Position numbers and translations under genes: made by a program
Shown: in pieces, positions 6,851-12,725 of the stretch
Layout: every line of letters begins with the position of its first letter
How positions within the stretch are numbered: position 1 is the first letter of the stretch
Source of the DNA: an uncultured Bacteroidota bacterium
GTDB taxonomy: Bacteria; Bacteroidota; Bacteroidia; AKYH767-A; 2013-40CM-41-45
Direction of reading: 5' to 3'
NCBI GenBank assembly: GCA_937871435.1
Contig: CALMQM010000026.1
Span: forward strand, 1-64,000
Length of the DNA: 64,000 bases
Notes under the pieces: generated by a model
The model's database searches: none
What the model was told of the DNA's origin: nothing
Seen by the model: only the letters and a program-made list of their open reading frames with translations

Positions 6851-9100
6851 ATGAATCAAATTATTCACTCAACCCGGACCATCTTTTTGTTTTTTTTTCT
6901 AATCAGTAGCATTTTTTCCAGTCATTCTACCTGCGCAGGAACCGGTGACACTACTGTGGTTCACGGCTTTAATGCATTTCTTCATCAAAATTGTAATTCC
7001 GGAACAGGCACATTTGCTTTTCCTGCGGATTCTTTCAAGACATACAAAGTGTTGTTGAAGTATCAGCTTAGCTGTCCTTCTTTCGGGTGTGATATTTATG
7101 ATCGGATTGCTACGCTGAAAGTATTGAGTCATACCGGACGCATGGATTCAACTCTGACTCTTGCTCCGAATTTTTTACTCAATGGAGTTACAGCAGATTC
7201 AGTTTGGTTCATGAATGACACATCTTACCAGTATTCTTATAATTCAACTACTTCATCAGTCGATTCAGTTCCTTTTCCTTCCATGCAGGTAATTCTGTTT
7301 GGAGATTCTGCCAATCCGACACAAGCTACCGATACACTTACTGTTTGGCCCTCGTATTACAATCAATATGTTTTTGATGTGAATGGTGTGGCTACAGATT
7401 CTGTCGCAGTTGCTCCTGATTCGATGATTTATTACTCACCCGATTCACTTTATTCTACACCTTTTGAAATTCTGGATCCGGTGGAAATTGCCCGTGCCAT
7501 CACACCTTATGGTATGGCAGTTGATTTGTGGTTTGATGTCAGTGATTACAAACCTTTGTTGCACGACAGTGTTGCTTTATACACTGCTGTATGTGGCTAC
7601 AGCAATGGTTGGTTGGTTACGACTGATTTTTATTTTATTGAAGGGGATGCTCCCGTTCATCCATTCAAAGTCACCAATCTCTGGAACGGAACTTTTCCAT
7701 ACGGAAACACTTCGAATCCGATAGAAAGCCATTTACAACCTTTGAGTATACCTGTGGATACGCAGACAGTTTTTTCTAAAGTAAGACTGATCACTACAGG
7801 TCATGGTTTTGGCGGTTATCCGAATCAGGATGTAGCTGAATTTTATGATGTCACTCATACTTTCATTGCAGGATCTGATACCATGCCACAACATTTGTGG
7901 AGATCTGATTGTGGATTGAATCCCTTATATCCGCAGGGAGCTCCCGGATACACAAGTACCTGGTTTTACAAGCGTGCAAACTGGTGTCCCGGTTCTTATG
8001 TTACTCCCCATGATTATAACGTCACTGCTGAGGCTATTCCCGGTGATACACTGCATATTGATTACAACATGCAACCCTACACAGTTACCGGTGGTCCTTC
8101 CGGTTGGTATCCTCCGGAGTATTACATTCAATCACAGGCTATCTTTTATGATCATCTGAATTATGTGAATAATGCGGCAATTCTTGAAGTGCGTAAGCCC
8201 AACAATGCCTTTGAATTTAATAGACTGAATCCAATGTGTGAAGGCTCCTCACCGGAGATCTTAATAAAAAATTATGGAACTGCTCCGCTCACAAGTCTGA
8301 TGTTTCATTATGGTATTGATGGTGTAACTACTAATAGTCAGCAATGGACAGGTAATCTGGAGTTTCTTGACACAATTTCAATTACTCTTCCGCCAATCAC
8401 TTTTGGCCCTGGTTCACATTCATTTTTTATCTATTGTGATCAACCTAATTCTACTACTGATGAATATACTTTCGATGACACTTTGCATACTCAGTTTGTT
8501 GCCAACAATGTGATCAATTCAAATGGTTTCTGGATTCAGGTCAAAAATGACGGTTCACCTAATGAAGTCAGCTGGGATATTCGGGATGTTAGTGGAGTTG
8601 TTCTTGAGTCCCGGTCAGGATTTTCTACTGCTTACGCATTGTATAATGATACAGTTTATTTGCCCAATGGTTGTTATTCCGTGAATGTGTATGATAGCTA
8701 TGGTGACGGATTGTGCTGCTATGGTGGCGGTCAGGGATTTTTTGCAGTGAACAATATTGATGGAAATTCTATTTGGGCAGTAAGGGATTTTGGAGCGCAA
8801 TTTAGTATCAACCTTACACTGGATTATATTAATGGGGTGGATGAGTTGACAAAAGATGCAAAAATATTCACTCATCCCAATCCTGCACACGACCAACTCA
8901 GACTGAATACATCAATAGAAAATGCGACAGGTGAGATTTCCATCACGGATATCAGCGGTAGAATTGTGTATCACGATGAAAACTTAATAATCAATGAACA
9001 TCTTGCTGACATTTCATTGACAGGAATTGCGCAGGGAGTTTATTTTCTGCGTTTGTTGGCAGATGGAAAATGGATGTCCGGTAAATTTGTAGTAGAGTAG
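6851..9100 (+). CDS. Secreted PNGase F-like glycoamidase with T9SS sorting domain
   Basis: A 749-residue protein with a signal peptide (about 1-30). The core, about residues 35-395, resembles peptide-N-glycosidase F, which cleaves N-glycans from asparagine. It has SFGCDIYDRIATLKV, which looks like the strand carrying the catalytic aspartate of PNGase F (D60 there). It also has EIARAITPYG, the conserved loop LITTGHGFG, and the typical YKRANWCPG near the end of the second jelly-roll domain. A middle beta-sandwich region follows. The last 75 residues (from HPNPAHDQLRL to GKFVVE) form a type A T9SS sorting domain, so the enzyme should be surface-anchored or released. Catalytic residues were matched from memory, not by alignment. 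A bidirectional terminator follows. Confidence 0.82.
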   Translation: MNQIIHSTRTIFLFFFLISSIFSSHSTCAGTGDTTVVHGFNAFLHQNCNSGTGTFAFPADSFKTYKVLLKYQLSCPSFGCDIYDRIATLKVLSHTGRMDSTLTLAPNFLLNGVTADSVWFMNDTSYQYSYNSTTSSVDSVPFPSMQVILFGDSANPTQATDTLTVWPSYYNQYVFDVNGVATDSVAVAPDSMIYYSPDSLYSTPFEILDPVEIARAITPYGMAVDLWFDVSDYKPLLHDSVALYTAVCGYSNGWLVTTDFYFIEGDAPVHPFKVTNLWNGTFPYGNTSNPIESHLQPLSIPVDTQTVFSKVRLITTGHGFGGYPNQDVAEFYDVTHTFIAGSDTMPQHLWRSDCGLNPLYPQGAPGYTSTWFYKRANWCPGSYVTPHDYNVTAEAIPGDTLHIDYNMQPYTVTGGPSGWYPPEYYIQSQAIFYDHLNYVNNAAILEVRKPNNAFEFNRLNPMCEGSSPEILIKNYGTAPLTSLMFHYGIDGVTTNSQQWTGNLEFLDTISITLPPITFGPGSHSFFIYCDQPNSTTDEYTFDDTLHTQFVANNVINSNGFWIQVKNDGSPNEVSWDIRDVSGVVLESRSGFSTAYALYNDTVYLPNGCYSVNVYDSYGDGLCCYGGGQGFFAVNNIDGNSIWAVRDFGAQFSINLTLDYINGVDELTKDAKIFTHPNPAHDQLRLNTSIENATGEISITDISGRIVYHDENLIINEHLADISLTGIAQGVYFLRLLADGKWMSGKFVVE

Positions 9101-9161: not shown

Positions 9162-9863
9162 TCAACTGGCGGCATTGTCGATCAAACGAAATCCTTTACC
9201 GTGTATATTGATGATATCCAGTGACGGATCATCTTTCAGGTATTTTCTCAGTTTCGTTATGAACACATCCATACTGCGTGCATTGAAATAATTGTCATCG
9301 CCCCAGATTTCTTTGAGTGCTTTTTGGCGAGGCAGCAATTCATTTTTATAAATGCAGAGCATGCGTAACAAATCGGCTTCTTTCGGACTTAATTTCTGTG
9401 ATTCGTTATTTATACTGATGCTTCGGTGGTCATAGTTGAAATGGTATTTCCCAACGGTAAATTCTTTTTGAGAAGGATCATGACCTTTTTCTGCACTTCG
9501 TTTCAGGATTGCTTTCAGTTTATAAAGCAGTACTTCCGAATCAAACGGTTTGGTCACATAATCATCTGCGCCAACACGGAATCCATTGAGCATGTCTTCT
9601 TTCATAGTCTTTGCAGTGAGAAAAATGATGGGAATATGTTCATCTTTTTCTCTGATTTCTTTGGCAAGAGTAAATCCATCCTTTCGAGGCATCATGACAT
9701 CCAGAATACAAATGTCAAACTTACCGGAAACAAACTGATCATATCCGGCAAAACCATCTGTACAGAGTTTTACATCGTATTCGTTTAATTCAAGATAATT
9801 TTTCAGAACAGAACCGAAGTTGGGGTCATCTTCTACAAGGAGGATTTTTGATTTTGTGTTCAT
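9162..9863 (-). CDS. OmpR/PhoB-type response regulator
   Basis: A 233-residue two-component regulator. The receiver domain has the acidic pair ED at 11-12, the phospho-acceptor D55 in LDVMMPRKDG, and K85 in FLTAK. The C-terminal winged-helix domain (about 130-230) shows the Trans_Reg_C pattern with SPKEADLLRMLC and ARSMDVFITKLRKYL. The gene follows its sensor kinase by 20 nt in the same operon. It resembles Bacteroidota RprY by family and arrangement, but I do not assign the symbol. Phased TTAAC repeats upstream of the kinase gene are a plausible binding site. Confidence 0.93.
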   Translation of the reverse strand: MNTKSKILLVEDDPNFGSVLKNYLELNEYDVKLCTDGFAGYDQFVSGKFDICILDVMMPRKDGFTLAKEIREKDEHIPIIFLTAKTMKEDMLNGFRVGADDYVTKPFDSEVLLYKLKAILKRSAEKGHDPSQKEFTVGKYHFNYDHRSISINNESQKLSPKEADLLRMLCIYKNELLPRQKALKEIWGDDNYFNARSMDVFITKLRKYLKDDPSLDIINIHGKGFRLIDNAAS

Positions 9864-9883: not shown

Positions 9884-11536
9884 TTATTTAAAGGGGATGA
9901 AAAATTCAAAGCTGCTTCCTTTGTTCGGTTCGCTTTCTACGACAATCCAGCCATTGTGTTTTTCTACGATAGCTTTCACATAACTCAATCCCAATCCAAA
10001 TCCTTTGATGTCGTGAATATTTCCTGTAGGAACGCGATAGAATTTTTCAAATATTTTTTTCTGTGTATCTTTTGACATACCAATTCCCTGATCACTCACT
10101 TTTACACTTAATCCGTCTTTCAGGTTTTCAGTTTGCACCAAAATAACGGGATGTTCGGGAGAATATTTATTCGCGTTATCCAACAAATTGAATATCACAT
10201 TGGATAAATGAATAGGATCACCCTGTACCATTGGAAGTTCAGCATTCAGTTTACACTCGATGTGTCCTTCCTTACTTTCAACCTGCAGGCTGATCAGGTC
10301 AACAGCCTTTTGAATCAGGTCATGCACATTCACGTCTTCATGACGAATGTTCAATTCGCCTTTTTCAATTTGTGCCATTTGCAGGACATGTTCTACCTGC
10401 ACATTCATTCGCCTGTTTTCTTCCCGGATAATGCGGGTAAAATACGCCATCTTTTCAGGATTGCTGACTACCCGGGAATCTTTGATGGAATCTACCGCCA
10501 AAGATATGGTTGCAATCGGAGTTTTGAATTCATGGGTCATATTATTTATAAAATCCGTCTTAATATCTGATAATTTTTTCTGACGAAAAATCACCTGTAT
10601 CGTATATGCAAAACCGAAAAGAATAATTAAGGTAAATAATGTCGAACTTATTAGCATGAGCCACATGGAAGCTAACAGGTATTTAATTGTATTTGGAAAG
10701 TTAAGTACAAGAAAATCTGGTTTAGCTACAATATCGTTCGGGAATAATAAAGTTCTAAACTTCGAATTGGAAAGATCTTCCGCTTTTTCTTTGTTGCGGG
10801 TCAGGACAAATGAATTACTCTGTCCGTTTAATACTCCAAAATTGTAATCAATGTCCAACCCTCTGTTTTTTAATTCATAACCGACAAGGGAATCCAGGTT
10901 TTTAGGATTGATACGTTTTCGTATATCATCATCCTGACCCGCAAATTCAACAGCCATTTTATGCATGACCTCGTTTAATTTATCCAGTCGGGCTTTGATT
11001 TTTTCTTCATTTTGTTTGATAATCACTTCGGCTGAATCACCATACAATCGCATGATCTGAGATGACCTGACGGTATGCTGGGAAATGGAGTCTTTGTGAA
11101 TATAATTTCTTCTTTGAAGGCGAAGAAAAGTCTGACTGCTTCCAGGACGATGAAATTCGATATTGATGTCTGCATTGTCCAGATCTTCCCAGATTGGTGG
11201 ATGTGGGTTTAATGGAATATCTGGAATTTCAATACTTGTATCTGTAATTGTGATTGGGACAGGATCCTGAACATCTTCGACATTCATCGTATCATTCATC
11301 ATCATCCTGCTGATTTTCGCCGGATCAATGTCGAAAATCCTGTCGTGCAGGATATTCATCGCCTCATTTGTTTCAATCCTGTCTACAATGGCACTCATTG
11401 CCTGAGTAACAGTTTGCTCAAACTGCTGTTCTTTCAGCTGAATATCGTGCATAATCCAATAGACCTGCAGTGTAATGATACCCAACAGGGCAATGCTCAT
11501 TAGTGCAATTATCCATCGAATCCTGTGTTTGTTCAT
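9884..11536 (-). CDS. Membrane sensor histidine kinase
   Basis: A 550-residue kinase. TM1 is at about 10-29, a long extracytoplasmic sensor region at about 30-285, and TM2 at about 286-315. The dimerisation/phospho-acceptor motif NNMTHEFKTP carries H335. The ATPase domain has the N box NVIFNLLDNANKYS, the G1 box VSDQGIGM, the F box FEKFYRV and the G2 box GFGLGLSYVK. It is the first gene of the operon with the response regulator. A candidate -7 box, TATTTTTA (complement of 11543-11550), ends only 6 nt before the ATG, so the transcript may be leaderless. The signal is unknown. The sensor region has no named domain I can see. Confidence 0.93.
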   Translation of the reverse strand: MNKHRIRWIIALMSIALLGIITLQVYWIMHDIQLKEQQFEQTVTQAMSAIVDRIETNEAMNILHDRIFDIDPAKISRMMMNDTMNVEDVQDPVPITITDTSIEIPDIPLNPHPPIWEDLDNADINIEFHRPGSSQTFLRLQRRNYIHKDSISQHTVRSSQIMRLYGDSAEVIIKQNEEKIKARLDKLNEVMHKMAVEFAGQDDDIRKRINPKNLDSLVGYELKNRGLDIDYNFGVLNGQSNSFVLTRNKEKAEDLSNSKFRTLLFPNDIVAKPDFLVLNFPNTIKYLLASMWLMLISSTLFTLIILFGFAYTIQVIFRQKKLSDIKTDFINNMTHEFKTPIATISLAVDSIKDSRVVSNPEKMAYFTRIIREENRRMNVQVEHVLQMAQIEKGELNIRHEDVNVHDLIQKAVDLISLQVESKEGHIECKLNAELPMVQGDPIHLSNVIFNLLDNANKYSPEHPVILVQTENLKDGLSVKVSDQGIGMSKDTQKKIFEKFYRVPTGNIHDIKGFGLGLSYVKAIVEKHNGWIVVESEPNKGSSFEFFIPFK

Positions 11537-11557
11537 TGGGTGTAAAAATACGGAGCC

Positions 11558-11614
11558 TTAACACTTGAACGTCGAATTTAACCAAATATTAACAGCTATT
11601 AACCCCGATTTAAC
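11558..11614. promoter_or_regulatory. Phased TTAAC direct repeats, candidate response-regulator site
   Basis: TTAAC occurs at 11558, 11578, 11589, 11599 and 11610. The last four are spaced 11, 10 and 11 bases, so they fall on one face of the helix. OmpR/PhoB-family regulators bind tandem direct repeats with about 11-bp periodicity. The array lies between the kinase/regulator operon and the divergent secreted-protein gene. That it is bound by this regulator is inference. Confidence 0.5.
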
Positions 11615-11636: not shown

Positions 11637-11644
11637 TACTTTTG
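11637..11644 (+). promoter_or_regulatory. -7 box of the divergent secreted-protein gene
   Basis: TACTTTTG is a perfect TAnnTTTG, 28 nt before the ATG at 11673. No good -33 element is present at the right distance. The last TTAAC repeat (11610-11614) sits close to that position, as for an activator-dependent promoter. Confidence 0.5.
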
Positions 11645-11672: not shown

Positions 11673-12725
11673 ATGACACGTCACCCCAAAGAATTACTCG
11701 CATGGATTGCGCTTGTTTTCGCGGTTATGCTCCTGGGTGTTTCACTTGCAATTGCTCAGGAAGGATCTGATAAAAAGAACTCCAAAGAGGATGGTTCACT
11801 CAGACTGAAAATTTCTAAAACCGAAAATGGAAAAACAGTGAAAGTGGATACCACACTAAGTTTGAACAATTTGTCGGAGCTTGATAAAATACTGGATCAA
11901 CTGGGCGTTGAACATGATTTTCAATTCGATTCCCGTGAGAATGAGAATGCCAAAGAACCCGGAAAAAGGGCACACCACAAAAAAGACAAGGTTGTAATAT
12001 ATCACAACTTTGATTTTTCGGATAAGAAGCAGGAGGAAATTGAGAAGGAGATGGAATCTGCTATGAAGAATGCTGAAAAGGAGTGGGAAAAGGCAGGGCA
12101 GGAAATGCGCAATATTCATATTGAAATAAACGGTAATGACACCAGTAATTTCAATTTTGATTTTGAAATGCCTCCCATGCCACCAATTCCGGAAATGCCT
12201 GATGTTTCTGATTTGATGAAAGATTGCGAAGTATACAAAAACCGGAACGGCAGGTTTTTCAAAGAAGACTATATGGATCAATTTGATGGATTGGACAGCC
12301 TGAGTGATTCCGATCACATTATTTTCTTTGGAGATGAGGATGAAAAAGCACCTGTATTGGAAAAAGAAATCATCGGTAAAAACGGACAAAAGGTATTTGT
12401 TTTCAAAAGGAGCAACGATTCTCCTTCCGTTTCTAAAGACGAAGATGGAGCATCCACTTTCAGTAAAGATGAATTGAAACATCTGCGTTATTACCCAAAT
12501 CCAAGTCGTGGTAAATTCGATCTTGATTTTAATGTCAGCACCAAAGGGGATGTGGAAATTTTAGTACTCACTCCGAATGGTGAAACAGTTTACAGCGAGA
12601 ATTTGAAAAACTTCAGCGGTGAATATTCAAATCAAATTAATCTTAGCGAAAAGGGAAAAGGAAATTATTTGCTCAAGATTACCCAAAACGGGAAGCATAT
12701 CACAAAAAAGATTATTGTGGAATAA
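11673..12725 (+). CDS. Secreted acidic/charged protein with T9SS sorting domain
   Basis: A 350-residue protein without a recognised catalytic domain. A signal peptide (about 1-29, ending near AIAQ) leads into a highly charged, probably partly disordered middle. This contains a Lys/Glu-rich helix (about 110-150) and a proline-methionine patch PPMPPIPEMPD. The C-terminal 75 residues, starting at RYYPNPSRGKFDLDF and ending KKIIVE, form a type A T9SS sorting domain. It is transcribed away from the two-component operon over a shared 136-nt region with phased TTAAC repeats, which suggests it is a target of that system. Function unknown. Confidence 0.78.
   Translation: MTRHPKELLAWIALVFAVMLLGVSLAIAQEGSDKKNSKEDGSLRLKISKTENGKTVKVDTTLSLNNLSELDKILDQLGVEHDFQFDSRENENAKEPGKRAHHKKDKVVIYHNFDFSDKKQEEIEKEMESAMKNAEKEWEKAGQEMRNIHIEINGNDTSNFNFDFEMPPMPPIPEMPDVSDLMKDCEVYKNRNGRFFKEDYMDQFDGLDSLSDSDHIIFFGDEDEKAPVLEKEIIGKNGQKVFVFKRSNDSPSVSKDEDGASTFSKDELKHLRYYPNPSRGKFDLDFNVSTKGDVEILVLTPNGETVYSENLKNFSGEYSNQINLSEKGKGNYLLKITQNGKHITKKIIVE

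Follow-up and report, generated by a model that had tools for sequence, protein, structure and literature searches.

In Staphylococcus aureus, SaeR-P recognises the site GTTAAN6GTTAA, and the P1 promoter of sae is autoinduced (PMC5083920). RprY of P. gingivalis was found to bind its own promoter in an EMSA (PMC3646045). In flavobacteria, moreover, the primary sigma element is TAnnTTTG, located at -12 to -5 (PMC9723704). Our search of the open literature returned no report of a GTTAA motif or regulon for RprY, none of GTTAA in connection with Bacteroidetes, and little on the control of envelope stress in Bacteroidota.

The window analysed here is a 64-kb stretch of DNA in which an earlier note had described five TTAAC copies lying between a two-component operon and a secreted protein, and had proposed a tandem OmpR/PhoB-type operator with autoregulation. 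From sequence comparison, we consider it very probable that this array is the autoregulatory, activating operator of the RprX/RprY-like regulator encoded at 9162-9863, with an envelope-gene regulon in trans. The features concerned are as follows.

9162..9863, minus strand: OmpR-family response regulator, RprY-like, the proposed array binder (Pfam, NCBIfam, alignment and tree)
9884..11536, minus strand: sensor histidine kinase, RprX-like (Pfam HisKA and HATPase_c, orthologs and model)
11543..11550, minus strand: predicted -7 element of the kinase operon, TATTTTTA, with one mismatch to TAnnTTTG; position fixed by orthologs
11558..11562, minus strand: GTTAA copy 5, two turns past copy 4 and about 12 bp upstream of the -7 element
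11578..11582, minus strand: GTTAA copy 4, proximal to the kinase promoter, starting 32 bp before the -7 element and predicted at about -44 to -40
11589..11593, minus strand: GTTAA copy 3
11599..11603, minus strand: GTTAA copy 2
11610..11614, minus strand: GTTAA copy 1, distal to the kinase and proximal to the divergent gene
11637..11644, plus strand: predicted -7 element of the divergent secreted-protein gene, TACTTTTG, from sequence
11673..12725, plus strand: divergent secreted protein with a T9SS C-terminal sorting domain (Pfam Por_Secre_tail)

All five TTAAC copies are present where the earlier note had placed them (starting at 11558, 11578, 11589, 11599 and 11610), with steps of 20, 11, 10 and 11 bp. 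Read towards the kinase, the array consists of five GTTAA at -78, -67, -57, -46 and -26 from the ATG. The phased spacing of four copies proved real: this is the only run of at least four identical pentamers at 10/11-bp steps within the window, and 40 shuffled windows yielded no four-copy run of this kind. The intergenic region is AT-rich (35% GC) and TTAAC is a simple string, so that one may think of a chance or compositional repeat with no regulatory role, but the probability of this is negligible. Indeed, TTAAC is depleted in the window (73 occurrences on both strands against 139 expected), and the cluster is therefore not compositional; none of 20,000 dinucleotide shuffles of the 136-bp intergenic region contained three phased steps, and the phase is conserved across the phylum. 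Array frequencies no higher than chance were what the earlier note had named as counting against its idea, and the genome scans gave no such result. In the whole genome (4.36 Mb), TTAAC triples at 10/11-bp steps occur only at the window array and at C62:3965, ahead of the gene for a secreted protein that begins with a carboxypeptidase-regulatory-like part. Among the first 100 TTAAC pairs listed for this genome, 15 are spaced at 10 bp and 8 at 11 bp (23 together), against about 2.7 pairs for each of the other spacings. Conservation and the genome scans thus ruled out a chance origin.

Scanning for sigma-70 promoters was of no use in this phylum, and the Bacteroidota -7 box was taken instead. 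The kinase operon is predicted to start about 2 nt before the ATG. Given that TAnnTTTG lies at -12 to -5 according to the flavobacterial rule (PMC9723704), copies 1-4 would span about -75 to -40. In most relatives the -7 element begins 10-16 nt before the kinase ATG, and the kinase mRNA is thus predicted to be leaderless or nearly so. Another candidate for the kinase promoter, TAGTTTTG at 11671-11664 on the minus strand, was considered and set aside because orthologs put the -7 element beside the ATG.

For phasing statistics, we pooled 89 upstream regions from kinase loci of the class and RprY-like loci of the phylum. The steps between GTTAA copies cluster at 10/11, 20/21, 31/32 and 41/42 bp, and the distances from GTTAA to TAnnTTTG at 32/33, 42/43, 52/53 and 63/64 bp. 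The copies are thus direct repeats at 10-11 bp in a fixed phase to the promoter, the arrangement of an OmpR-family operator. Together with the conservation described below, this fixed phase to the kinase -7 element lends strong support, at the level of sequence, to the tandem operator with autoregulation that had been proposed.

To follow the array beyond this genome, we fetched 30 kinase loci, our own and 29 from relatives in the family, order and class. Phased GTTAA pairs at 10/11-bp steps were found upstream of the kinase in all 30 (29/29 relatives), usually followed by TAnnTTTG at -10 to -16. Copy 5, located 19-20 bp past the array, is kept in most family members, including relatives L005-L010. 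A phylum sample of 296 genomes gave 60 RprY-like loci, 56 of them with a callable upstream open frame, and 42 of these 56 systems, from about 20 families, carry a GTTAA pair. In Bacteroides pyogenes, B. faecis and others, GTTAA lies at -77, -56 and -46 before rprX, and TAATTTTG is found 33 bp after the -46 copy.

Most Prevotella, Muribaculaceae and other non-Bacteroides Bacteroidales relatives have no canonical pair upstream of rprX; one was present in 14 of 77 kinase loci. In the phylum sample, families f26 and f27 and most of f29 possess an RprY-like regulator and no array. Since these groups depart from the pattern, the element is widespread and not universal. Prevotella and relatives (L313, L319, L326 and L335) show two GTTAA at a 9-bp step upstream of rprX instead of the 10/11-bp array. 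In f26 (L141, L145, L147, L153 and L164), several loci have an element resembling TTAACAAAAAATTA immediately ahead of the regulator gene.

The flanking genes are of the types that the earlier note had given, an OmpR-type regulator, a HisKA/HATPase kinase and a Por_Secre_tail protein (Pfam). The kinase has two transmembrane helices and a long periplasmic part; in its model (mean pLDDT 69), the periplasmic domain is mixed alpha/beta and contains a disordered insert, and the best structure matches are to kinase catalytic cores. The regulator combines a receiver with a Trans_reg_C winged helix and adjoins the kinase, as expected of the OmpR/PhoB family (Pfam). Against the NCBIfam RprY model (NF051850) it scores 315.4 bits, below the curated cut-off of 370, which only 2 of the 296 sampled genomes exceed. 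It is nevertheless the best RprY match of its own genome, at 315 bits, the runner-up reaching 240.8. In the alignment it shares about 52% identity with B. pyogenes RprY, and the segment NYFNARSMDVxITKLRKxLK is highly conserved; in the tree it falls among array-bearing relatives. Moreover, the kinase gene lies directly upstream of it, the neighbourhood expected for RprY. On its sequence, the regulator is RprY-like and is not filed as RprY. Identity as CpxR (NF008199) was rejected at 116.4 bits against a cut-off of 341.

Binding of the boxes by a different OmpR-type regulator, such as a phosphate regulator of the PhoB kind, is quite improbable. The genome encodes about nine OmpR-type regulators, Bacteroides PhoB is the window regulator's next-best NCBIfam match, and the boxes of cyanobacterial SphR, CTTAACCT with a 3-bp linker, look alike, with a TTAAC core at 11 bp (PMC1906773). 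However, identity of the window regulator as a Bacteroides-type PhoB (NF053854) was rejected at 169.1 bits against a cut-off of 270, and the genome's best PhoB match is a different gene, at C6:11679 (217.8 bits). No phosphate transport gene was recognised among 64 target genes, and the array travels with RprY-like operons across families. A second kinase-regulator operon of the same genome (C34:7000-14000, L381) has a single strict GTTAA site, which suggests a cascade or a shared operator; it lies next to a small secreted protein. Because this system carries the same site, more than one regulator might bind it.

As for the mechanism, the phosphorylated regulator would bind the GTTAA half-sites head-to-tail, one helical turn apart, and would cover about -75 to -40 of the kinase-regulator promoter, leading to its activation and thus to positive autoregulation. 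We infer here the binding by the window regulator, its dependence on phosphorylation, activation rather than repression, and the signal. Autoregulation is supported by the finding that P. gingivalis RprY binds its own promoter (PMC3646045), although repression is the reading preferred by the authors. Their work, in which RprY is described as a likely repressor and chaperone repression is argued for, counts against activation. The array could accordingly be read as a repression operator, with the bound regulator blocking the kinase promoter, the divergent promoter or both, and with copy 5, placed between the -33 region and the -7 element, serving to occlude; most family members have it 12 bp ahead of that element. 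We regard this reading as unlikely: a proximal copy that is conserved at about -44 to -40, in strict helical phase to the -7 element, fits activation, and the fifth copy is absent from most target promoters and from most relatives outside the family.

The array that is proposed to activate the kinase operon also faces the divergent promoter and would probably control the secreted-protein gene too. The earlier note had put the last copy near -33 of a plus-strand promoter, which agrees with the TACTTTTG element at 11637-11644, 27 bp past that copy's start. The same 27-bp distance from TTAAC to the divergent -7 element was found in five loci, and in three more it is 38 bp. The divergent protein has orthologs in family members, and several genera of the order encode divergent secreted proteins whose N-terminal region is similar, K-ISL-I--E-NGK---IDTTF. 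This NGK...DTTF region, which has no Pfam match in the window protein, is common to L007, L009, L012, L019, L022 and L032 and is followed by proline-rich or T9SS parts; a T9SS tail is found in only some of the divergent secreted proteins. Elsewhere, the divergent gene encodes a DUF5916-like protein, a family also present in the predicted regulon. Several lineages keep the array where the divergent gene is unrelated or absent. Co-regulation of the divergent gene is likely and less secure than autoregulation, and of the two partners that the earlier note had given the array, the kinase promoter stands as the primary one and the surface protein does not. Another T9SS-sorted protein, with a peptide-N-glycosidase F C-terminal domain (PF09113), is encoded at 6851-9100.

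We then searched for the strict pattern GTTAA-N5/6-GTTAA-N26-29-TAnnTTTG, as an exact match that misses degenerate sites and uses no weight matrix. It gave 101 matches in 61 genomes, compared to 12 for the reversed pattern and 6 when the copy step was changed to 13/14 bp (binomial tests). A control pattern shifted one turn further gave 34 matches and is not clean, since in about half of these a third copy makes the same arrays match. The window's own genome has 5 strict sites and 0 control sites. All five lie directly before genes in the right orientation. Two of these genes encode M13 peptidases; the others are the second kinase gene (C34), one for a MacB-like permease and a TolC-family gene with an efflux adaptor-like gene after it. 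When the last base of TAnnTTTG was freed, the window site was retrieved as the sixth site of this genome.

Strict sites were found in 73 of 96 genomes with an RprY-like match, and outside the class in 14 of 23, against 8 of 200 genomes without such a match; these counts include autoregulatory sites, and the co-occurrence is partly phylogenetic. We selected 65 sites across the phylum, most kinase promoters being left out, and, as the choice was not random, their gene contents are descriptions and not rates: a start codon lies within 110 bp of 63 of the 65 sites, the N-terminus is hydrophobic in 54 of 64 products, and 11 recurring families account for 43 genes. These are M13 peptidases (10), DegP (5), outer-membrane barrels (5), MacB-like (4) and DUF5916 (4) proteins, kinases (3), TolC (3), the DUF3108 group (3), DUF1573 (2), DsbD (2) and FKBP (2); family representatives were identified by Pfam, kinases excepted.

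The surface-protein regulon that had been suggested thus turns out too narrow: besides surface proteins, the sites precede genes for proteases of the envelope and a chaperone-protease, for efflux, for disulfide and folding factors, and for outer-membrane proteins. In trans, copies with two half-sites at the same distance to the -7 element would control a set of such genes, namely those for M13 peptidases and DegP, for TolC and MacB-like parts of efflux systems, for folding factors and disulfide factors, and for outer-membrane proteins, and the RprX/RprY-like system would work as an envelope-care response with a layout similar to Cpx. With its fixed position relative to the promoter and its conservation from this genome as far as Bacteroides, the box opens the way to regulon prediction in many genomes, and the envelope-care sites together with the conserved switch define a testable stress-response network in these bacteria.

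Compared with known systems, the operator type is a known one, since the half-site equals the SaeR box. SaeRS of S. aureus (PMC5083920) likewise has GTTAA repeated directly with a 6-bp gap (the length of two of the three consecutive gaps here, the other being 5 bp); the promoter of its regulator operon is autoinduced and has two sites, and an exported auxiliary protein, SaeP, is under the same control, an arrangement resembling the one proposed for the window locus. In contrast, SaeRS belongs to another phylum with another sigma factor and controls virulence exoproteins, and the arrays described here mix 10- and 11-bp steps, consist of two to five half-sites and keep a fixed distance to TAnnTTTG. 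The GTTAA repeat of SaeR thus recurs in another phylum, with a different regulator and gene set. With RprX/RprY of Bacteroides, the locus shares the kinase-regulator operon and the GTTAA pair at the same place before rprX, whereas the published RprY targets (groES, clpB, dnaK, ahpC and nqrA) differ from those predicted here. SphR boxes are likewise served by an OmpR-family regulator, of a different subfamily, and concern phosphate genes.

Cpx also relies on direct pentamer repeats at a 10-bp step (GTAAA-N5-GTAAA), is autoregulated, has target types such as DegP, a peptidyl-prolyl isomerase, a disulfide factor and efflux, and places an exported-protein gene divergent from the sensor-regulator operon (PMC12802237). 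Its half-site differs by one base, however, the window regulator is not CpxR, the divergent protein has no CpxP match in Pfam, and the gene order in the window is kinase then regulator. A phylum-wide Bacteroidota Cpx-like response acting through RprX/RprY-like GTTAA arrays, with the divergent protein as a CpxP/SaeP-like feedback adaptor of the kinase, is conceivable, if somewhat doubtful. By analogy, we take the parallels with SaeR, Cpx and RprY as likenesses in working, and not as membership of these systems.
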